Below are positions 33,161 through 44,002 of a stretch of DNA of 64,000 nt, one piece after another. The translations under genes were made by a program, and so were the position numbers. The first letter of the stretch is position 1, and each line of letters opens with the position of its first letter. Source of the stretch: Pedobacter sp. KBS0701 (GTDB lineage Bacteria > Bacteroidota > Bacteroidia > Sphingobacteriales > Sphingobacteriaceae); NCBI RefSeq assembly GCF_005938645.2, contig NZ_CP042171.1, positions 992,001 to 1,056,000 of the forward strand, read 5' to 3'. The notes under the pieces were generated by a model. That model had not been told where the DNA came from and made no database searches. It saw nothing but the letters and a program-made list of their open reading frames with translations.

Positions 33161-33607
33161 ATGCTATCCAAAAAAACAAAATATGCCATTAAAGCGCTTG
33201 TTGCGCTGGGTAAAAATTTAGATAAACCACCTATGCAGATTTCGAAAATTGCAGAGGAGGAGCATATCCCGAAAAAATTCTTAGAACAAATTCTGCTCGA
33301 TCTTCGTAATGCAGGTTTCTTGTACAGTAAAAAAGGTGCCGGAGGCGGTTATAGCCTGAATAAAAAACCAGAAGAGATTTTATTGGTACATGTAATGCGT
33401 GTAACCGACGGACCGATTGCGATGGTTCCATGTGCAAGTTTAAACTTTTACCACAAATGTGATGAGTGTGTAGATGAGAAAACCTGCGGAATTAGAAGTG
33501 CCTTTATCGATGTAAGGGATGCTACGCTTAAGGTTTTAACCGAAACCAGCATTGCCGATGTAATCGGCCGCGAGGATAACCTGAAGATCGGTATCGTTAA
33601 TTTATAA
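33161..33607 (+). CDS. Rrf2 family transcriptional regulator (CymR/IscR type)
   Basis: 148 residues. Winged HTH (KTKYAIKALVALGKNL, then KIAEEEHIPKKFLEQIL) and the wing GAGGGYSL at about 59-66. Four cysteines at 91, 100, 103 and 109 (PCASLNFYHKC, DEC, KTC) sit where IscR-like members bind an Fe-S cluster, so redox or iron-sulfur sensing is possible. It lies 0.7 kb upstream of the sulfite reductase on the same strand and is the best local candidate to control the sulfur genes through the conserved block at 34144-34181 and 43131-43168; this is an inference. Confidence 0.92.
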   Translation: MLSKKTKYAIKALVALGKNLDKPPMQISKIAEEEHIPKKFLEQILLDLRNAGFLYSKKGAGGGYSLNKKPEEILLVHVMRVTDGPIAMVPCASLNFYHKCDECVDEKTCGIRSAFIDVRDATLKVLTETSIADVIGREDNLKIGIVNL

Positions 33608-34143
33608 TTTTTTTAAAACTTTCTGCTAACGATCCGTCACCCTGACCTGTAGCGTAGCGCAAAGCTACGAAGTAAATTTATTTCAGGGTCTTTGTTGTTA
33701 TAATCAAACCTGCGAGGTCTTAAATAAATAATGTTTTTGGAAAGCAGTGTTTAATGCGTGTCGGTTACGATAGTACTGCTATCGCTGCAAGTCCTCGCTC
33801 ACTGTAGGCTTTCCGTTATATCAGGTTTAATCGGCAAAGAATTCCGAAGTTTCCAAGGAGTGGAGTGCAGGCAACTTCTGAAGTTTGGTCACTTTTTGCG
33901 ATAATTCTGCGTTAGGGATTGTAAGGGTTCAGTACCGATCCTTCATCGGTACCGGAGCGAAGCGCAGCCCTGCAAAAGCCCGACCCTTGCGAAGCTTGGG
34001 GAACGCCCAAATCAGTTGGCAGTTATCAATTTGCAGTTTTCAGTTACTCTTATTTAAGAATTTAATACCCAGATTTCTCACCTGATTAACTTCGGGACTG
34101 CGTTTTAGTCGAAATGACATTTCTTTAATGTAATTTTTTTCAC
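33608..34143. repeat. Intergenic region carrying a composite repeat element (inverted copy)
   Basis: No gene. A GTAGCGTAGC/GCTACG...TTTCAGGGTCT unit lies near 33635-33693. A composite element follows: part C at 33748-33829 (complement of the 47875-47955 unit, containing CGATAG...CTATCG hairpin arms) and part B at 33911-34020, whose GTTAGGGATTGTAAGGGTTC and GGTACCGGAGCGAAGCGCAG segments reappear reverse-complemented at 47656-47808. Confidence 0.7.
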
Positions 34144-34181
34144 AATAAATTACGACTATTCCTATATACTTTATATATTTG
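34144..34181 (+). promoter_or_regulatory. Promoter of the sulfur-assimilation operon with conserved upstream block
   Basis: The -7 box TATATTTG (34174-34181) fits TANNTTTG. The 38-bp block matches 43131-43168 at 34 positions, including AATAAATTAC and CTTTATATATTTG. There is no TTTG -33 element in either copy, so the conserved upstream part is likely a regulator site. The start of transcription should fall near 34186-34190. Confidence 0.7.
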
Positions 34182-34227
34182 GCGTATGAACTTCAATTTT
34201 ATACCTAACCAGTTAACCGCTAAGCAA

Positions 34228-34257
34228 ATGATGTGCTGTTGTTGTAAAACGCATTAA
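34228..34257 (+). CDS. Cysteine-rich leader peptide MMCCCCKTH
   Basis: ATG ATG, then four consecutive Cys codons (one TGC, three TGT), then Lys-Thr-His-stop. It lies about 40 nt into the predicted transcript of the sulfite-reductase operon and 36 nt before a Rho-independent terminator. An in-frame ATG at 34186 would give a 23-residue version but falls at the predicted transcription start, so I prefer the short form. A run of Cys codons in front of a cysteine-supply operon is the classical layout of ribosome-mediated attenuation. The peptide itself probably has no other function. Confidence 0.75.
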   Translation: MMCCCCKTH

Positions 34258-34293
34258 CAGGAGCCTACAGATAATTTTATGTGTAAAATATGG

Positions 34294-34324
34294 AATGCTT
34301 CTCGGTAACAGGGAGGCATTTTTT
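34294..34324 (+). terminator. Attenuator terminator in the sulfur operon leader
   Basis: AATGCTTCTC (34294-34303), loop GGTAACA, GGGAGGCATT (34311-34320), with six T at 34319-34324: a 10-bp stem including two G-U pairs and a U-run, ending 20 bp before the reductase start. The stop-codon region of the leader peptide contains GCATT (34251-34255), complementary to AATGC of the ascending arm, so an alternative antiterminator pairing is possible. A small ATTTTA/TAAAAT hairpin (34274-34289) lies between. Confidence 0.75.
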
Positions 34325-34344
34325 GAATAAAGCTAACAACATAT

Positions 34345-36435
34345 ATGCAAAGTTTCAGAACAGAACTCGAAAATCCGATCGTCGAGCAGGACATCATCGA
34401 TTTAGAGAATAAGATTAAAGCTTTTAGAGATGGAACCATCCACGACGAAAAGTTTAGGAGCCTTCGTTTGGCCCGCGGTGTTTACGGACAAAGGCAGCCT
34501 GGCGTGCAGATGGTGCGTATTAAACTGCCGTTTGGTAAGGTAACTTTTAAGCAGTTATTACGTATTGCCGATATTGCTGATGAGTACGGAAGTGGCAATC
34601 TGCACTTAACCACGCGTCAGGATATTCAGATCCATTATGTGAGTTTAGATAGAACCCCCGAGCTTTGGGCCAAACTGGAGCAGGATGATATTACTTTGCG
34701 CGAAGCCTGCGGAAACACGGTGCGTAATGTAACCGCATCTCCAAATTCGGGCATCGATGCGGAAGAGCCTTTTGATGTTTCTCCTTACGCACAAGCGGTA
34801 TTTGCGTACTTTTTGCGTAACCCAATCTGTCAGGAAATGGGGCGTAAGATTAAAATTTCTTTTTCTTCCAGCGATAGGGATACCGCTTTCAGCTATATTC
34901 ACGATTTAGGTTTTATTCCGAAAATTAATGAAAATGGCGAACGTGGGTTTAAAGTTTTATTTGCAGGTGGTTTAGGTGCACAGCCTTTCCTGGCAAATGC
35001 CGTTCACGAATTTTTGCCTGAAGATCAGTTAATTCCTTTTACCGAATCTGTGCTTCGTGTATTTGATCGTTATGGCGAACGTACCAACCGTAACAAAGCA
35101 CGGTTAAAATACCTGGTTCAGAAATTAGGTTTAGAAGAGGTATTGCGTCTGGTTGCCGAAGAGCGTATTGCCAATAAAGTAAAAACTTTTAAAATAGATA
35201 TTAATACGGTACCTCAGCCAACTTTGCCTTTAGAGCAGGAATACCCTGCGGTAGAAATATTAAACGAAGCCCATTACAAACACTGGTTAACCACCAATGT
35301 AATGGAGCAGAAACAGGCCGGATTTTATGGTGTGTATGTGAAAGTTCAGGTGGGCGATATCAAAACAGATAAGGCAAGGGCTTTTGTTGATGCCATCAGG
35401 TTATATGTTGCTGATGAAATCAGGATTACCCAAAACCAGGGACTATTATTGAAGTTTGTACGTAAGGAAGCACTACCTTCATTATATGCGGCTTTAAATA
35501 AAATTGGTTTTACAACAGCGGGCTTTGATAGTTTGGCCGATATTACCACATGTCCGGGTACAGATACCTGTAACCTGGGTATTTCGAACTCAATGACATT
35601 AGCTGAAGTTTTGGAAGAGGTGATTTATACCGATTTCCCTGAGTTTATCTACGAGAAAAACATCAAGATCAAAATCAGTGGTTGTATGAATTCTTGCGGT
35701 CAGCACGGCTTGGCCGAAATCGGTTTCCACGGAAGCTCGGTAAAAGCTGAAGGAAAAGTGGTACCGGCTGTTCAGGTGATGTTAGGTGGCGGTACTGTTG
35801 GTAACGGCGTTGGCCGGGTGGCAGAACGTGTAATTAAAGTACCTTCTAAAAGAGCAACAAGTGTTTTACATTTCATTTTAAATGATTTTAAGGCGAATAA
35901 CCTCGAAGATGAAAACTTCCACCAATATTATGATAGAAAAGGGAAAGACCATTTTTATCAGTTATTAAAACCATTGGCCGATTTAACGAACCTGCAAACA
36001 GAAGAATTTGTAGACTGGGGACATGTTGAAGAATTTGTAACGGCCATTGGTGTTGGAGAATGTGCCGGTGTGGTGATTGATTTAGTGGCTACTTTATTAT
36101 TAGAGGCCGACGAAAAATTTGGTTGGGCAAAGCAAAACTTAGATAAGGGTGCTTATGCCGACGCCATTTATCATACCTATAGCACTTTTGTAAGTGCAGC
36201 AAAGTCTTTATTGTTGGATAAAGGCGTAAACAGCAGTACCCAGGTTGGCGTGATCCGCGAATTTGATAACCACTATGTAGAAACCGGCGAATTTAACTTA
36301 CCGACCAATTTCTCAGACCTGGTTTTACAGATCAATAAAAACGAACCAACGGCAGAATTTGCCCAAAAATATTTCGATGAAGCCAGTCAATTTTTAAATC
36401 AGATTAAGGAAAAAAGAGCGGTATTAGCGAAATAG
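34345..36435 (+). CDS. Siroheme-dependent sulfite (nitrite/sulfite-type) reductase
   Basis: 696 residues. Two ferredoxin-like half domains (about 55-125 and 325-390) alternate with siroheme/4Fe-4S domains. The cluster ligands are C403 and C409 (TTCPGTDTC) and C447 and C451 (SGCMNSC). A helical extension of about 130 residues at the C-terminus resembles the HEPN-like tail known in Bacteroidota members. Context with cysH, cysD, cysN and siroheme genes makes sulfite rather than nitrite the substrate: sulfite + 6 e- to sulfide. Expression is probably gated by the attenuator just upstream. Confidence 0.92.
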   Translation: MQSFRTELENPIVEQDIIDLENKIKAFRDGTIHDEKFRSLRLARGVYGQRQPGVQMVRIKLPFGKVTFKQLLRIADIADEYGSGNLHLTTRQDIQIHYVSLDRTPELWAKLEQDDITLREACGNTVRNVTASPNSGIDAEEPFDVSPYAQAVFAYFLRNPICQEMGRKIKISFSSSDRDTAFSYIHDLGFIPKINENGERGFKVLFAGGLGAQPFLANAVHEFLPEDQLIPFTESVLRVFDRYGERTNRNKARLKYLVQKLGLEEVLRLVAEERIANKVKTFKIDINTVPQPTLPLEQEYPAVEILNEAHYKHWLTTNVMEQKQAGFYGVYVKVQVGDIKTDKARAFVDAIRLYVADEIRITQNQGLLLKFVRKEALPSLYAALNKIGFTTAGFDSLADITTCPGTDTCNLGISNSMTLAEVLEEVIYTDFPEFIYEKNIKIKISGCMNSCGQHGLAEIGFHGSSVKAEGKVVPAVQVMLGGGTVGNGVGRVAERVIKVPSKRATSVLHFILNDFKANNLEDENFHQYYDRKGKDHFYQLLKPLADLTNLQTEEFVDWGHVEEFVTAIGVGECAGVVIDLVATLLLEADEKFGWAKQNLDKGAYADAIYHTYSTFVSAAKSLLLDKGVNSSTQVGVIREFDNHYVETGEFNLPTNFSDLVLQINKNEPTAEFAQKYFDEASQFLNQIKEKRAVLAK

Positions 36436-36539: not shown

Positions 36540-37316
36540 ATGAGCGATCAGAAATTAAATATAGAATCAAAAATTACCCTTTTAGGTGCAGGTCCTGGAG
36601 ATCCGGATTTATTAACCTTAAAAGGGGTGAAGGCTTTGCAAACTGCTGATGTGGTATTGTACGATGCTTTAACCAACGAAGCTTTATTGGAGCATGCTCC
36701 GGCAGCCGCCATTAAAGTTTATGTAGGAAAACGTTCAGGTGAACATTCTTATCCGCAGGATACCATCAATAAACTGATGATTGATTATGCTTTAAATTAC
36801 GGACATGTGGTACGTTTAAAGGGCGGCGATCCGTTTGTTTTTGGCAGGGGATATGAGGAACTGGATTATGCCGCATCTTACAGCATTCCGGTAAGTGTTA
36901 TTCCGGGTATTTCGAGTTCTATCGGTGTACCAGGTTTGCAGCAGATTCCGGTTACGCACCGTGGCATGAGCGAAAGCTTTTGGGTAATCACCGGTACAAC
37001 CACATCCGGAGAAGTTTCAGCAGATATTTACCAGGCAGCACAATCAAAAGCTACGGTATTGGTACTGATGGGACTTAAAAAATTACCTAAAATTGTAGAG
37101 ATTTTTAAAGCGGCAGGCAAACATAATTTACCAACTGCTGTGGTGCAGAACGGATCGGCAGAGGATGAAAGATTGGTTGTTGGAGTAGTTGAAACCATAG
37201 AAAGTTTGGTTCAGCAAGAAAATATTAAAGCACCAGCTTTATTAATTTTTGGAGAAGTTGTATCATTACATCCATCATTTAAGAAATTAATTAAACAATA
37301 TGCAAGTATTGCCTAA
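36540..37316 (+). CDS. cobA: Uroporphyrinogen-III C-methyltransferase
   Basis: 258 residues, SUMT. It methylates uroporphyrinogen III twice with SAM to make precorrin-2, the precursor of siroheme. Motifs: LLGAGPGDPDLLTLKG (about 14-29), VYVGKRSGEHS, VRLKGGDPFVFGRGYEE (about 97-113), PGISSSIGVPGLQQIPVTHR (about 123-142). All expected SAM-site residues are present. It overlaps the next gene by 17 bp, which encodes the next enzyme of the pathway. Confidence 0.95.
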   Translation: MSDQKLNIESKITLLGAGPGDPDLLTLKGVKALQTADVVLYDALTNEALLEHAPAAAIKVYVGKRSGEHSYPQDTINKLMIDYALNYGHVVRLKGGDPFVFGRGYEELDYAASYSIPVSVIPGISSSIGVPGLQQIPVTHRGMSESFWVITGTTTSGEVSADIYQAAQSKATVLVLMGLKKLPKIVEIFKAAGKHNLPTAVVQNGSAEDERLVVGVVETIESLVQQENIKAPALLIFGEVVSLHPSFKKLIKQYASIA

Positions 37317-38811
37317 CCAACCTGATAATGCAATACCTTTTTCGGAAGAAGAAAAAGGTAACCAGCTCTTTCCAGTTTTTGTGAAGCTGAACAAGCTGCG
37401 TACATTATTAATTGGAGCAGGCAATATTGGGCTGGAGAAGTTAACGGCGATTGTAAATAACAGCCATAGTGCTACCATTACTATTGTGGCAGAAACGGTA
37501 TCGCCGGAGGTTTATGCACTTGTCGCAAATTACCCGCTCATAAAAGTTAAGCAGAAAAGTTTTGATATCGACGATTTAAACGATATTGATATCGTTTTTG
37601 CGGCAACCAATAACCATATTTTAAATGAAGAGATCAGAAAGGTAACGCACGAGCGTGGTCTGCTGATCAACGTGGCAGATAAGCCAGAACTATGCGATTT
37701 TTACTTAGGATCAATCGTTCAAAAAGGCGATTTAAAGATTGCCATTTCTACAAACGGTAAATCGCCAACCATTGCCAAACGTTTAAAGCAGATTTTAAAT
37801 GAGGGTTTACCCGCAGAACTGGATGAAACCCTACAGAATATGAGCGCTTTGCGCCAAACTTTAAACGGCGATTTTTCGGCAAAAGTTAAAAAACTCAATA
37901 AGGTTACCCAAAGCTTGATCAATCCTAAAAAAAGCTTCGCAGAGCGGAATATTAAATGGTTGATCTGGGTGGCATCAGTTTTATTGATAGGCGCAATCGG
38001 ACTTTCGCTTTGGAATACCGAACCCGAATTTCAGACGTTTTTGATCAACATCGATCCATTGTTTTATTGGTTTTTAGGTGCTGGATTTTTATTCGCCTTA
38101 ATTGATGGGGCAATCGGAATGTCTTATGGGGTAACAACAGCTTCCTTTTCACTAGCTATGGGTTTACCGCCTGCATCCGCAAGTATGGCCATCCATATTT
38201 CTGAGGTAATGAGTAATGGGATTGCAGGGTGGATGCATTACAGGATGGGGAATGTGAATTGGAAACTATTCAAAATTTTAATTCTTCCTGCCATAATCGG
38301 TGCAGTTTTAGGTGCCTATATCCTTTCCTCATTAGAACATTATAGTGCTTATGTTAAACCCATTGTGGCGGTTTACACCTTGTTTCTAGGAGGAGTTATT
38401 TTAATGAAAGCGTTTAATATCAAGCGTAAAAAAGCAGATCAAAAAATCAAAAAAATTGGACTATTGGGTTTTTTTGGTGGCTTTATCGATGCGGCTTTTG
38501 GCGGTGGATGGGGATCGATCGTTTTATCGAGTTTAATTGCGGGCGGCCGTCACCCTTTGTTCTCATTGGGTACGGTAAAAATCAGCCGTTTTTTTATTGC
38601 CACTTTAAGTTCGCTTACCTTTTTCACCATGTTGGGCGGCAAACACTGGGAAGCTGTTTTAGGCTTAATTATTGGTAGTGCAATCGCATCGCCAATTGCC
38701 GCAAAAGTATCGAACAAAATTTCTGCAAAAACCATTATGGTTGCTGTGGGGATTATTGTAATGATTGTGAGTTTGCGGAGTGTGATTATGTTTATTTTAA
38801 AATTAATTTAG
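37300..38811 (+). CDS. Fusion: siroheme synthase N-terminal domain plus TSUP (TauE/SafE) permease
   Basis: 503 residues. Residues about 20-210 are the CysG-B/Met8p-type domain (VFVKLNKLRTLLIGAGNIGL, VFAATNNHILNEEI, INVADKPELCDFYLGSIVQKG, IAISTNGKSPTIAKRLK), which oxidises precorrin-2 and inserts iron. Residues about 220-503 are a multi-span TSUP transporter with the two GGFIDAAFGGGWGS-type repeats (about 243-265 and 390-405). TSUP proteins export sulfite or other sulfur compounds, or import sulfate-like anions. The fusion places cofactor synthesis and sulfur-anion transport in one polypeptide. The ATG at 37300 overlaps cobA. Confidence 0.9.
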   Translation: MQVLPNQPDNAIPFSEEEKGNQLFPVFVKLNKLRTLLIGAGNIGLEKLTAIVNNSHSATITIVAETVSPEVYALVANYPLIKVKQKSFDIDDLNDIDIVFAATNNHILNEEIRKVTHERGLLINVADKPELCDFYLGSIVQKGDLKIAISTNGKSPTIAKRLKQILNEGLPAELDETLQNMSALRQTLNGDFSAKVKKLNKVTQSLINPKKSFAERNIKWLIWVASVLLIGAIGLSLWNTEPEFQTFLINIDPLFYWFLGAGFLFALIDGAIGMSYGVTTASFSLAMGLPPASASMAIHISEVMSNGIAGWMHYRMGNVNWKLFKILILPAIIGAVLGAYILSSLEHYSAYVKPIVAVYTLFLGGVILMKAFNIKRKKADQKIKKIGLLGFFGGFIDAAFGGGWGSIVLSSLIAGGRHPLFSLGTVKISRFFIATLSSLTFFTMLGGKHWEAVLGLIIGSAIASPIAAKVSNKISAKTIMVAVGIIVMIVSLRSVIMFILKLI

Positions 38812-38813
38812 TG

Positions 38814-39512
38814 ATGGAGAACCTAGAAGATATAAAAGCAGCACTGGCAGGTTTGAATACAATTGATAAACTGAAATTTTTGGCAGATCAATATGCCGGC
38901 CGTATTATATTTTCAACCAGTTTTGGTTGGGAAGACCAGGCGATTACACATTTGATCTTTGCCAATAATATACCGATTAAGGTTTTTACCTTAGAAACCG
39001 GACGCTTGTTTCCAGAAACTTATTACGTTTGGAACCGTACCTTAGAAATTTATAACAAGCCGATTCATGCCTACTATCCGCAAAATGAGCTGTTGCAGGA
39101 TATGGTGAATACCAAAGGCCCGAGCAGCTTTTACGAATCGGTAGAAAATAGAAAAGAATGCTGTTACATCCGTAAAATTGAACCATTAAAAAGAGCATTA
39201 AAAGGGAATGAAATCTGGATAACAGGCATCAGGGCTGATCAGAGTGCCAACCGTGAGGATATGCACGATTTAGAATGGGACGAAGGCAACCAGTTGGTTA
39301 AATTCCACCCAATATTCGATTGGACTTTAGAGGATGTGAAAGCATACATTAAAGAAAACAACATTGTTTACAATACGCTGCACGATAAAGGTTTTCCGAG
39401 TATAGGATGCGCCCCATGTACAAGAGCAGTACAGCCAGGCGAAGATTTTAGAGCCGGAAGATGGTGGTGGGAAGACCAGAGCAAAAAAGAATGTGGCTTA
39501 CACGCTACTTAA
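38814..39512 (+). CDS. cysH: Adenylyl-sulfate (APS-type) reductase
   Basis: 232 residues from MENLED; a GTG one codon earlier is an alternative. PAPS/APS reductase fold with FSTSFGWEDQ (about 33-42) and ETGRLFPETY. The cysteines C116-C117 and C199/C202 (SIGCAPC) form the four-cysteine set that binds a 4Fe-4S cluster and is typical of APS-specific enzymes; C227 in KKECGLH is the catalytic one. No APS kinase is encoded here and CysN lacks a kinase domain, which agrees with direct APS reduction to sulfite. Confidence 0.93.
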   Translation: MENLEDIKAALAGLNTIDKLKFLADQYAGRIIFSTSFGWEDQAITHLIFANNIPIKVFTLETGRLFPETYYVWNRTLEIYNKPIHAYYPQNELLQDMVNTKGPSSFYESVENRKECCYIRKIEPLKRALKGNEIWITGIRADQSANREDMHDLEWDEGNQLVKFHPIFDWTLEDVKAYIKENNIVYNTLHDKGFPSIGCAPCTRAVQPGEDFRAGRWWWEDQSKKECGLHAT

Positions 39513-39689
39513 GGTATAAGGCGGAAGGCTAAAAGATAGAAGGTTTATATTCCTTACTAATGGAACGTTGGAATATCCCAACATTCAAACCTTCCAAACA
39601 TTTTAAACAACAATAACAACAACAACAAGTTGAGTAATTGAGCGATTTAACATTCAATCATTCAACATTCAATCATTCAACATTTGATA
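39513..39689. repeat. Operon spacer of degenerate inverted words
   Basis: GGCGGAAGGCTAAAAGATAG then AACATTCAAACCTTCCAAAC, followed by AACAACAATAACAACAACAA and tandem CATTCAATCATTCAA words up to the cysD start. A start at TTG 39684 is in frame but the ATG at 39690 is preferred. Confidence 0.55.
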
Positions 39690-40595
39690 ATGAGTACATA
39701 TAATTTTGATTATTTAGATGAACTAGAGGCCGAGGCTATTCACATTTTGCGTGAAGTAGCAGGTCAGTTTGAAAAACCGGCCCTATTATTTTCGGGTGGA
39801 AAGGATTCAATTACTTTAGTTCGTTTGGCAGAAAAAGCTTTTCGTCCGGGGAAATTTCCTTTTCCTTTGGTACATATAGATACCGGCCATAATTTCGAAG
39901 AAACCATCACTTACCGTGACCAGATGGTAGCAAGAATTGGCGAAAAATTAATTATCGGTTCGGTGCAGGAATCTATCGATCAGGGTAAAGTAGTAGAGCA
40001 GACCGGTAAAAATGCCAGTAGAAATGCTTTGCAAACCGTAACCTTGCTTGATACCATTGCAAAATACCAGTTTGATGCCTGTATTGGTGGTGCCCGTAGG
40101 GATGAAGAAAAAGCAAGAGCAAAGGAACGTATTTTCTCTGTCCGTGACGAATTCGGTCAGTGGGATCCAAAACGCCAGCGTCCTGAACTTTGGAACATTT
40201 ATAACGGTAAAATCCATAAAGGTGAAAATATCCGCGTATTCCCGATCAGTAACTGGACAGAATTAGATGTTTGGAACTATATCCGTAGAGAGAAAATCGA
40301 TTTGCCAAGTATTTATTTCTCGCACGAACGTGATTGCATTACGCGTAATGGACAATTGATGGCTGCTTCTCCGTTTTTAAATATGGATGATGAGGATATA
40401 ATTGAGCGCAAGCAGGTTCGTTTTCGTACGGTAGGCGATATGTCGTGCACTGCTGCGGTAGAATCGGATGCCACTTTGATTGATGATATTATTTCAGAAA
40501 TCAGTGCCTCTAAAATTTCAGAACGTGGCGCCCGTATGGACGATAAAGTTTCGGAAGCCGCAATGGAAGATAGAAAAAAGGGAGGGTATTTTTAA
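39690..40595 (+). CDS. cysD: Sulfate adenylyltransferase subunit 2
   Basis: 301 residues from MSTYNFDYLDEL. ATP sulfurylase small subunit: the N-type ATP-pyrophosphatase loop LLFSGGKDSITLVRL (about 34-48), HIDTGHNFEET, ARRDEEKARAKERIFS and WDPKRQRPELWNIYNG are characteristic. With CysN it makes APS from sulfate and ATP, driven by GTP hydrolysis. Spacing to cysN is 155 bp of degenerate repeat, yet they surely share a transcript. Confidence 0.96.
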   Translation: MSTYNFDYLDELEAEAIHILREVAGQFEKPALLFSGGKDSITLVRLAEKAFRPGKFPFPLVHIDTGHNFEETITYRDQMVARIGEKLIIGSVQESIDQGKVVEQTGKNASRNALQTVTLLDTIAKYQFDACIGGARRDEEKARAKERIFSVRDEFGQWDPKRQRPELWNIYNGKIHKGENIRVFPISNWTELDVWNYIRREKIDLPSIYFSHERDCITRNGQLMAASPFLNMDDEDIIERKQVRFRTVGDMSCTAAVESDATLIDDIISEISASKISERGARMDDKVSEAAMEDRKKGGYF

Positions 40596-40750
40596 CAGAG
40601 AATCAAGTATATAGTATCAAGTATCAAGATTGAAAATTCTCTTGATACTAATGTCTTAATACTCAATACTAAATACTCTATACTTGATACTAAATACTTA
40701 ATACTAAAAAAGCCAACCCAATCATTAAACATTAAAACATTACAATAATC
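40596..40750. repeat. Operon spacer built of AGTATCAAG / CTTGATACT words
   Basis: AAGTATCAAGTATCAAG-type words fill the first third and CTTGATACT, AAATACT words the rest. The two sets are reverse complements and would form a long imperfect hairpin between cysD and cysN. Confidence 0.65.
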
Positions 40751-42001
40751 GTGAACATATTAAAATTTTTCACAGCAGGCAGCGTAGATGATGGTAAAAG
40801 TACCTTAATTGGCCGTTTGTTATATGATACAGATTCTATTTTGGCTGATCAGTTAGAAGCTTTACAGAGTTCGAACCGCAAAAATGACGATGGGTCAATA
40901 GATTTAGCCATTCTTACCGATGGTTTAAGGGCAGAGCGCGAGCAGGGCATCACCATTGATGTAGCTTACAAATACTTTCAGACAGAGAAACGTAAATTCA
41001 TTATAGCTGATACCCCGGGACACATTCAGTATACCAGAAATATGGTTACAGGCGCGTCTACTGCTAATTTGGCTATTATTTTAATCGATGCCCGCAACGG
41101 CGTGGTAGAACAGACCATCCGCCACTCCTATATTGTTTCCTTATTAGGCATTAAACATGTAGTGGTTTGTATCAACAAAATGGATATGGTTGGCTATAAC
41201 GAAACGGTTTACAGTTCAATCATTGAGAAATATAAAATCCTTGCTCAGCAATTAAAGCTTGCCGATGTAACCTATATTCCGGTAAGTGCATTAAAAGGTG
41301 ATAACATCGTACAAAATTCCGGCAACATGGATTGGTATGAAGGAGAAAGTCTGTTACATTTCTTAGAGAAAGTAGATACCGATAATTTAGATAAATCGCA
41401 ATTGGCGCGTATGCCCGTACAATGGGTGGTTCGTCCGCAAACAGCAGAACTGCATGATTACCGTGGTTATGCCGGGCGTGTATTGAGCGGAACCTTTAAT
41501 TTAAATGATAAAGTTACTGTTCTTCCTTCAGGAGCCGGCTCTATTGTAGAGAAAATAGAATTTTTTGATGAGGCACTTGATGCTGCACATGCTGGTCAGT
41601 CGGTTATTATCCATTTAAAAGATGATGTGGATATCAGCCGTGGCGATACCATTGTAAATGCATCGGCTTTGCCACAGGAAACAAAACTGATTGAGGCTGA
41701 TCTTTGCTGGATGGATACCCGTGCGCTAGATACTTCGATTATGTACAACATTCAGCATAACAGCAAGATTACTAAATGTAAAATCAGCGAAATTCTACAT
41801 AAGGTAGATATCAATACGCTTGAGAAACATGCTGCAGATGAATTTAAATTAAACGATATTGGCCGTGTGATTGTGAAAACCGCGGATGCCTTAGCTTTTG
41901 ATTTATACGACGATAACCGCGCAAATGGTTCTGCCATTTTGGTTGATACACGTACTAATTTAACTGTTGGTGCATTGATGTTCAGGGCGGCAGTGGAGTA
42001 A
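40751..42001 (+). CDS. cysN: Sulfate adenylyltransferase subunit 1 (GTPase)
   Basis: 416 residues, starting at GTG (MNILKFFTAGSVDDGKSTL). EF-Tu-like GTPase with the P-loop GSVDDGKS (about 10-17), DTPGH and NKMD motifs, followed by two beta-barrel domains. There is no C-terminal CysC kinase, so this is CysN rather than CysNC. It activates CysD in APS formation. Confidence 0.95.
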   Translation: MNILKFFTAGSVDDGKSTLIGRLLYDTDSILADQLEALQSSNRKNDDGSIDLAILTDGLRAEREQGITIDVAYKYFQTEKRKFIIADTPGHIQYTRNMVTGASTANLAIILIDARNGVVEQTIRHSYIVSLLGIKHVVVCINKMDMVGYNETVYSSIIEKYKILAQQLKLADVTYIPVSALKGDNIVQNSGNMDWYEGESLLHFLEKVDTDNLDKSQLARMPVQWVVRPQTAELHDYRGYAGRVLSGTFNLNDKVTVLPSGAGSIVEKIEFFDEALDAAHAGQSVIIHLKDDVDISRGDTIVNASALPQETKLIEADLCWMDTRALDTSIMYNIQHNSKITKCKISEILHKVDINTLEKHAADEFKLNDIGRVIVKTADALAFDLYDDNRANGSAILVDTRTNLTVGALMFRAAVE

Positions 42002-43130: not shown

Positions 43131-43168
43131 AATAAATTACTACAATTCCCATAGACTTTATATATTTG
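43131..43168 (+). promoter_or_regulatory. Promoter of the second SUMT gene, copy of the sulfur-operon block
   Basis: 34 of 38 bases equal 34144-34181, including the TATATTTG -7 box at 43161-43168. The predicted leader is about 35 nt with no Cys codons and no terminator, so the shared block can be separated from the attenuator function. Confidence 0.7.
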
Positions 43169-43207: not shown

Positions 43208-44002
43208 ATGATTTTGAATAAGGTAGAAAAAAAGAACATTGAACCAAAAATTACTTTAATAGGTGCTGGTCCTGGCGACCCGGACTTATTTAGTTTAAAA
43301 GGTGTTAAGGTATTAAAAACAGCTGATGTTGTTTTGTATGATGCAAATGTGAACGAAGCCTTATTGTGTCATGCGCCAGATGGTATTCCTAAAGTTTATG
43401 TAGGCAAACGTTCTGATGATGAATCTTTTTCACAGGATGCAGTGAACAAGCTGATTATTGATTATGCTTTAAACTACGGTCATGTGGTACGTTTAAAAAG
43501 TGGTGATCCGTTTTTCTTTGCGAAAGGATATGAAGAAATTGATGCCGCAGAATCGTACAGTATTCCAACTGAGATTATTCCGGGCATTTCGAGCGCAACT
43601 GGTGCACCAAGTTTGCAGAAGATCCCGATGATTTATAAAGACCTGAGTGAAAGTTTCTGGGCAGTAACCGGAACAAATAGCAGAGGCGAAATATCAGAGG
43701 ATTTATATATCGCTGCAAAAACGAAAGCTACAATTGTTGTTTTGAACGGAATTGAAAAAGTAAAAGAAATTGCAGCAATTTTCCAGGCAGAAAATAAAAA
43801 CCTGTTGCCTGTAGCCGTCATCCAGAATGGATCTACTCCACAGGAAAAAATTGCGATTGGTATAGTAGATACCATTGCCGAAATTGTTGAAGATAAAAAA
43901 ATTGATGCGCCTGCGCTATTGGTTTTTGGCGACGTGGTTTCATTACACCCTCAATTTCAACCGATCCGCGATTTTTACGAAATCATCGCCGAAGAATACT
44001 AG
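43208..44002 (+). CDS. Divergent SUMT-like methyltransferase (second copy)
   Basis: 264 residues, colinear with the first SUMT (36540-37316). IGAGPGDPDLFSLKGVKVL is kept, but conserved positions differ: LKSGDPFFFAKGYEE instead of LKGGDPFVFGRGYEE, and PMIYKDLSESF instead of PVTHRGMSESF. The loss of the GGDP glycine, the FGRG arginine and the THR histidine suggests altered activity or a different substrate. It is preceded by the same promoter block as the sulfite-reductase operon and followed by a strong terminator, so it is an expressed, sulfur-linked single gene. Could be a degraded or specialised SUMT. Confidence 0.88.
   Translation: MILNKVEKKNIEPKITLIGAGPGDPDLFSLKGVKVLKTADVVLYDANVNEALLCHAPDGIPKVYVGKRSDDESFSQDAVNKLIIDYALNYGHVVRLKSGDPFFFAKGYEEIDAAESYSIPTEIIPGISSATGAPSLQKIPMIYKDLSESFWAVTGTNSRGEISEDLYIAAKTKATIVVLNGIEKVKEIAAIFQAENKNLLPVAVIQNGSTPQEKIAIGIVDTIAEIVEDKKIDAPALLVFGDVVSLHPQFQPIRDFYEIIAEEY

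Follow-up and report, generated by a model that had tools for sequence, protein, structure and literature searches.

A probable cysteine-codon transcription attenuator in front of the sulfite reductase gene cluster of Pedobacter sp. KBS0701 and its relatives

The window analyzed here, a stretch of 64,000 nucleotides from the 6.33 Mb genome of Pedobacter sp. KBS0701, carries a gene for a sulfite reductase that is 99% identical to the protein of P. psychrodurus and 98% identical to that of P. jeongneungensis (both among the best 80 of 571 matches). The gene and its surroundings present the following features, in the order in which they are encountered.

33161..33607, plus strand: gene for an Rrf2-family regulator, directly 5' of the leader region (Pfam PF02082, E 7.2e-36)
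34152..34181, plus strand: putative promoter/operator box ACTACTANNNCTATATACTTTATATATTTG, with 1 mismatch here, recognized by its conservation
34174..34181, plus strand: -7 promoter element TATATTTG (TAnnTTTG), within the box, recognized from the sequence
34186..34257, plus strand: leader peptide ORF MNFNFIPNQLTAKQMMCCCCKTH, 23 codons with a TAA stop, probably leaderless, conserved in relatives
34234..34245, plus strand: four Cys codons TGC TGT TGT TGT, the putative sensor, read from the sequence; Cys pairs and runs recur in relatives
34259..34264, plus strand: predicted 5' strand of the antiterminator, AGGAGC, from comparison with relatives
34294..34324, plus strand: intrinsic terminator, stem 34294-34303/34311-34320 and T run 34319-34324, from the sequence and from alignment A1 (described below)
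34345..36435, plus strand: gene for a sulfite/nitrite reductase family protein, the first of the cluster (Pfam NIR_SIR, NIR_SIR_ferr)
36540..42001, plus strand: co-directional genes 3' of the sulfite reductase gene (Pfam), presumably co-transcribed

The genes at 36540..42001 encode a tetrapyrrole methylase, a siroheme-synthesis/TauE fusion protein, a CysH-like protein, a CysD-like protein and a CysN-like GTPase; the CysH-like and CysD-like proteins both represent the PAPS_reduct domain of Pfam. The fusion protein is encoded by one ORF (37300-38811), in which a siroheme-synthesis NAD-binding domain is joined to a TauE/SafE sulfite exporter domain. A further peculiarity of the cluster is found in the C-terminal residues 584-649 of the sulfite reductase, which match the HEPN family (E 1.3e-4, 22.6 bits against a Pfam cut-off of 22), an odd segment for an enzyme of this type.

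A previous sequence-only reading of this region had pointed to an ORF with four Cys codons in a row, MMCCCCKTH, followed by a stem of 10 bp that ends in six T. These elements and their spacings can be read directly from the DNA: positions 34228-34257 run ATG ATG TGC TGT TGT TGT AAA ACG CAT TAA, 36 nt separate the leader stop codon from the terminator stem, the stem arms AATGCTTCTC and GGGAGGCATT form 10 bp (-13.4 kcal/mol for 34293-34324), and the ATG of the sulfite reductase gene at 34345 lies 20 nt beyond the six T at 34319-34324. The start of the leader needs correction; 34228 is an in-frame ATG, yet the conserved ORF begins at 34186, and that reading had thus captured its last nine codons. 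A run of Cys codons is by itself not rare, as CCC is found in 12 of the window's stop-to-stop frames (leader included) and TGYTGYTGYTGY matches 95 places in the genome, some of them overlapping. The weight of our argument rests on the combination of the Cys run with promoter, terminator and operon, and on the conservation of this combination. As in trp-type attenuators, the leader ORF is short and contains consecutive codons for the amino acid made by the pathway that follows, and an intrinsic terminator is situated between this ORF and the first structural gene.

At up to 3 mismatches, the promoter/operator box has 2 sites in the 6.33 Mb genome, and its reversed control has 0; the second site (43139-43168) lies 5' of a second tetrapyrrole methylase gene (43208-44002), where no Cys leader is visible. 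Across the family, 46 of 201 genomes contain at least one match to the box, a count of matches whose positions were checked in part, and inspection by eye places the box upstream of the sulfite reductase gene in many Pedobacter loci. It is probably an operator that overlaps the promoter, and probably serves a sulfur regulator, with the protein encoded by the adjoining Rrf2 gene as a candidate for its binding. If the Rrf2 protein does bind there, the cluster would be under double control together with the attenuator. Rrf2-like frames were also seen by eye near the box or the cluster in loci L113-L115, L235 and L253.

A study on Flavobacterium psychrophilum places the motif TAnnTTTG at -12 to -5 and counts only 5.5% of the examined mRNAs as leaderless (PMC9723704). 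The leader ATG at 34186 starts exactly 4 nt past the -7 box, so that its A would be the +1 position if the spacing from this other species applies, and the leader mRNA is probably leaderless by this analogy. We defined leaders with a rule that is blind to Cys, namely the first ATG at most 18 nt past the -7 box with 12-35 codons; the gap between box and ATG is 4 nt in all 60 Pedobacter leaders defined in this way, a fixed spacing that is notable because leaderless mRNAs are so infrequent in F. psychrophilum. For the 26 leaders from other genera of the family, it is 4 nt in 11 cases and 1-14 nt in the rest. At least one Cys is found in 59 of the 60 Pedobacter leaders (at least two in 56) and in each of the 26 leaders from other genera (at least two in 21), and 217 of 1762 leader residues are Cys. 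No leader was found by the rule in 30 of 90 Pedobacter loci and in 44 of 70 loci from other genera, among them four from the window's clade (L029, L036, L037, L049). Of these, L036 is without the first ATG, and in L049 the long ORF is cut off by a stop codon behind its eighth codon. The Cys run is lost in the close relatives L037 and L056, and a single Cys is left in its place in L046.

The distribution of the complete element was assessed with a fixed definition that combines an ATG-initiated ORF of 5-50 codons containing CC or CxC with an intrinsic terminator 25-100 nt past the last Cys. The locus described here is its sole match on both strands of the 64 kb window. Upstream of sulfite reductase genes, the definition is fitted by 54 of 90 Pedobacter loci, by 20 of 70 loci from other genera of the family and by 24 of 74 loci outside the family, the latter distributed over 14 of 24 families. 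Dinucleotide shuffles of the upstream regions gave 0 matches in 800 for the home family and 1 in 1220 for the class set (61 loci). Among the best 80 of 571 named loci, which overlap with the main set and are not independent of it, 50 fit the definition; Mucilaginibacter pedocola, M. gilvus and M. oryzae are examples. The conservation of the Cys run in relatives, which the sequence-only reading had proposed as a check, did not refute its idea; recurrence in genus, family and class lends strong support to a Cys-codon attenuator of sulfur assimilation.

These numbers rest on the following samples. A sulfite reductase is encoded in 96 of 99 Pedobacter genomes, from which 90 loci of 90 genomes were examined; of the six genomes left out, two had partial matches only and four were not fetched. 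For the other genera, 80 genomes were picked from 165, 78 had a match, and 70 loci were examined with 8 left out. The class set derives from 95 of 396 genomes with a match at E <=1e-30 (18 from the home family and 77 from others); 74 of the 77 non-home genomes were examined (G360, G465 and G542 were left out). It was scanned as 61 + 14 loci, includes one home-family locus (L217, negative), and contains some gene starts that were extrapolated where the query match did not begin at residue 1. The element is missing from many genomes of the class, with 0 of 12 loci in family f52, 0 of 8 in f12 and 0 of 5 in f15, and among 30 CysD loci (29 genomes) of families without the element there was one match, located on the opposite strand and taken as chance.

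Nineteen loci without a match in the 450 nt 5' of the sulfite reductase gene were scanned as a whole, and five of them (L239, L245, L246, L247, L253) carry a match further upstream on the strand of the gene; L239 has an additional match downstream that we take as chance. Judging from the translations, an aldo/keto-reductase-like gene precedes the sulfite reductase gene in L239, L245 and L253, and a peroxiredoxin-like gene does so in L247. In these four loci the Cys leader or leaders lie 5' of the apparent first gene, with sulfite reductase apparently second. It is possible that these aldo/keto reductase-like and peroxiredoxin-like genes behind Cys attenuators are unrecognised parts of sulfur assimilation.

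The sequence-only reading had envisaged pairing between GCATT at the leader stop codon and AATGC in the ascending terminator arm; GCATT is indeed present at 34251-34255, but the pairing is not conserved, as 57.6% of cells are paired in alignment A1 (37 leaders) versus up to 67.1% when the structure is slid. Comparison with relatives points to a different duplex, in which AGGAGC would pair with GCTTCT at 34297-34302, a segment common to the 5' arm of the terminator. Numbered from the first base of the last Cys codon, AGGAGC begins at nt 17. Taken from the window alone, this 6-bp duplex (-7.2 kcal/mol) does not exceed shuffled sequences, 115 of 200 letter shuffles being as good. From 160 home-family sequences, 83 passed a filter for a rule-defined leader with Cys and a terminator of -8 kcal/mol or better; their duplexes have a median rank of 51 of 200, with a rank of at most 10 in 18 of the 83, and are singly mostly non-significant.

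For the comparative analysis, 75 of these 83 sequences were aligned in three groups: A1 with 37 leaders of the window's clade, A2 with 22 leaders of a second clade of the same genus, and A3 with 16 leaders of genus g14. The terminator is nearly invariant in its pairing in A1 (99.7% of cells paired), with 5 cells changed on both sides, a covariation that none of 500 shuffles reaches. In the same alignment, AGGAGC:GCTTCT is paired in 84.2% of cells versus 50-67% for slid versions; it covaries weakly, with 2 both-sided cells and a score that 22 of 500 shuffles attain, and its sixth pair is broken in 19 of 34 rows. The antiterminators of A2 (93.9% paired) and A3 (90.0% paired) each show 5 both-sided cells, reached by 0 of 500 shuffles. 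Each antiterminator structure was drawn from one row of its alignment and is therefore favoured over its slid versions.

A view that extends beyond the family is provided by 35 outgroup attenuators from 14 families, for which the region past the Cys cluster pairs with the terminator arm at a mean z of -2.99 relative to dinucleotide shuffles. When the search was opened to 45 nt 5' of the last Cys codon, the best antiterminator of 31 of the 35 started within nt 8-26 (observed 10-25), against 21.6% for letter shuffles; the other four best duplexes start at -31, -9, -8 and 0, upstream of the expected place. Within these 31, the start position is fixed most tightly relative to the last Cys codon (sd 3.1 nt), followed by the last Cys or Met (4.4), the first Cys (6.2) and the stop codon (15.3). 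Its median is 15 nt from the last Cys codon, compared with 17 in the window. The distance from the codon in the A site to the leading edge of the ribosome is about 15 nt. This placement is the strongest evidence that a ribosome would wait at the Cys codons. The second attenuator of L215 gave no antiterminator signal (z +0.3). No excess pairing was found between the Cys-codon region and the antiterminator in the 35 outgroup attenuators (mean z -0.02), and a classical protector hairpin is thus not supported. A mutually exclusive antiterminator positioned just past the stalled ribosome, as in trp-type systems, hence emerges from the comparison of relatives, whereas the window alone does not rise above shuffles.

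Our computations establish the leader ORF, its promoter spacing, the terminator and their conservation, and, for relatives, where the antiterminator lies and that it covaries. In our judgement the element is, with high probability, a ribosome-mediated transcription attenuator that reads the supply of cysteinyl-tRNA. In this model, transcription would start at or next to the leader ATG, and a ribosome would load at the 5' end of the transcript. When charged tRNA-Cys is scarce, the translating ribosome would pause while a Cys codon occupies the A site, leaving AGGAGC free to pair with GCTTCT in the 5' arm of the terminator. With this duplex formed, the terminator could not arise, and RNA polymerase would enter the sulfite reductase gene and the genes behind it. 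When cysteine is plentiful, the ribosome would move on to the stop codon and thereby cover AGGAGC; the terminator would form, and transcription would end 20 nt 5' of the sulfite reductase gene. The charging of Cys-tRNA would in this way control the whole operon, and most likely sulfite reductase would be made only when cysteine runs short.

A wider form of the cysteine attenuator, compatible with this explanation, would sense both sulfur amino acids through Met and Cys codons and open the operon when either charged tRNA is short; we regard it as a tentative proposal that is rather less likely to hold than to fail. Met is interleaved with Cys in leaders outside the window's clade, such as ...HMCMCMCMCCCM... 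(L283) and MMCCMMCI (L281). Outside the family, in 35 peptides that come from related genomes, 78 of 195 residues lying no more than two positions from a Cys are Met, versus 36 of 562 elsewhere, and 48 of 131 when only residues past the first Cys are counted, neither value being reached in 5000 permutations. Past the first Cys, a Met lies within two residues of a Cys in 13 of the 14 outside families (the exception is f2), and the enrichment near Cys extends to clade 2 of genus g1 (17 of 63) and to the family's other genera (20 of 72; 0 of 2000 permutations each). In the window's own clade, by contrast, Met accounts for 3 of 101 near-Cys residues past the first Cys, fewer than in nearly all permutations, and some of the Met codons could be alternative starts. 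The position of the antiterminator moreover varies less relative to the last Cys (sd 3.1) than to the last Cys or Met (sd 4.4), so that Cys looks like the main sensor.

Among the 24 outgroup loci that fit the fixed definition, 11, from six families, have one attenuator behind another (L215, L221, L226, L228, L237, L240, L260, L261, L281, L283, L292), with leaders taken from the first in-frame ATG that may be too long in L215 and L228. For mgtCBR of Salmonella, a tandem arrangement of attenuators that has two leader ORFs is known (PMC3641672). Two attenuators in series might multiply the response.

Alternatively, the terminator could be a plain terminator or insulator that happens to follow a chance Cys run, with regulation exerted by Rrf2 at the promoter box alone. 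The Rrf2 gene does adjoin, and the Pedobacter loci L062, L065, L068 and L097 keep the box without a leader or a strong terminator; the terminator, though, sits between the promoter box and the gene, Cys leaders are found again in 14 outside families, well beyond what shuffles give, and antiterminators covary in A2 and A3. Taken together, we consider this explanation very unlikely. Still less can be said for a nascent-peptide metal sensor, in which a Cys/Met-rich peptide would bind Cu(I) or another metal and stall the ribosome in a CruR/CutF-like manner; Cys/Met clusters could bind metal, and control of copper genes by upstream ORFs that carry Cys motifs has been described (PMC9973294). Yet the genes at stake serve sulfur assimilation and not metal handling, and the antiterminator starts at a distance from the last Cys codon (about 15 nt) that fits a wait with this codon in the A site. 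Some whole leaders have 7-8 residues (MCCMIIP, MMCCMMCI), and the ribosome tunnel is long enough to still hold their Cys residues, which makes a metal-binding nascent peptide highly improbable. A metabolite-binding riboswitch or T-box type RNA would agree with a structured 5' region that contains a terminator, yet it is scarcely credible, given that Rfam covariance models have 0 matches at E <=1 within 33600-34400, that the fold of the whole leader (34187-34330) is unexceptional (z -1.48), and that the feature recurring across families is coding content.

In the enterobacterial trp, his and leu attenuators, the leader contains codons for the end product, a stalled ribosome exposes the antiterminator, and the terminator ends in a U run. 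The element proposed here shares the end-product codons and the U-run terminator and would likewise have its antiterminator exposed by a stalled ribosome; it differs in responding, as we propose, to cysteine, in its probable leaderless start in Pedobacter, in that no protector hairpin was found, and in the frequent pairing of two consecutive attenuators in other families. Work by Canestrari in 2020 reportedly dealt with leaderless polycysteine attenuators of mycobacteria. Leaderless polycysteine short ORFs have been described in front of mycobacterial cys operons (PMC4633059), and Cys-run leaders at cys operons of mycobacteria and Propionibacterium and at cbs in Bifidobacterium (PMC1262725). 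The latter, a 2005 study of Actinobacteria, found no conserved terminator hairpin for the mycobacterial case, which is cited as translation attenuation in a 2026 paper (PMC13236596). Our element resembles these sORFs in having a Cys-run leader in front of sulfur/cysteine genes, a probable 5'-terminal ATG and cysteine as the presumed signal. In contrast to the mycobacterial trait of lacking a conserved intrinsic terminator, a terminator is present here and covaries in A1, the antiterminator covaries in relatives, and the phylum is a different one.

Another counterpart is the uORFC-8-2 motif of Rhodobacterales, with Cys codons in a short ORF in front of cysS, followed, as here, by an intrinsic terminator (PMC8632094). 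It is set apart from our element by its two tandem Cys codons, its position before a cysteinyl-tRNA synthetase gene, its alphaproteobacterial hosts, and its description by two prominent stems, the first of which holds the Cys codons (PMC8632094). Among the matches listed in open-access full texts, there was no earlier description of a cysteine attenuator in Bacteroidota, and on leader-peptide control in this phylum we found only general remarks. Leader-peptide attenuators have been noted for amino acid biosynthesis operons of F. psychrophilum (PMC9723704), and sORFs in 5' UTRs of Bacteroides thetaiotaomicron (PMC7366714). These remarks likewise suggest leader-peptide attenuation in Bacteroidota, in general terms and with no cysteine attenuator among them.

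Collectively, our findings would bring a major phylum into the range of cysteine-directed, ribosome-mediated attenuation that works through an intrinsic terminator and an antiterminator, with tandem and mixed Met/Cys versions suggested by the outgroup loci. It is conceivable, though we hold it to be doubtful in this full form, that sulfur amino acid attenuators exist class-wide in Bacteroidota, reading both Met and Cys, often arranged in tandem, with a 5'-terminal ATG in Pedobacter and an Rrf2-type operator layered on top. An antiterminator that starts about 15 nt away from the final regulatory codon, irrespective of where the stop codon lies, would be a precise and testable signature of the stalled ribosome, and this placement rule may help to locate attenuators that lack sequence conservation. 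The logic by which members of the Bacteroidota control sulfur assimilation would thereby become open to a direct reporter test.
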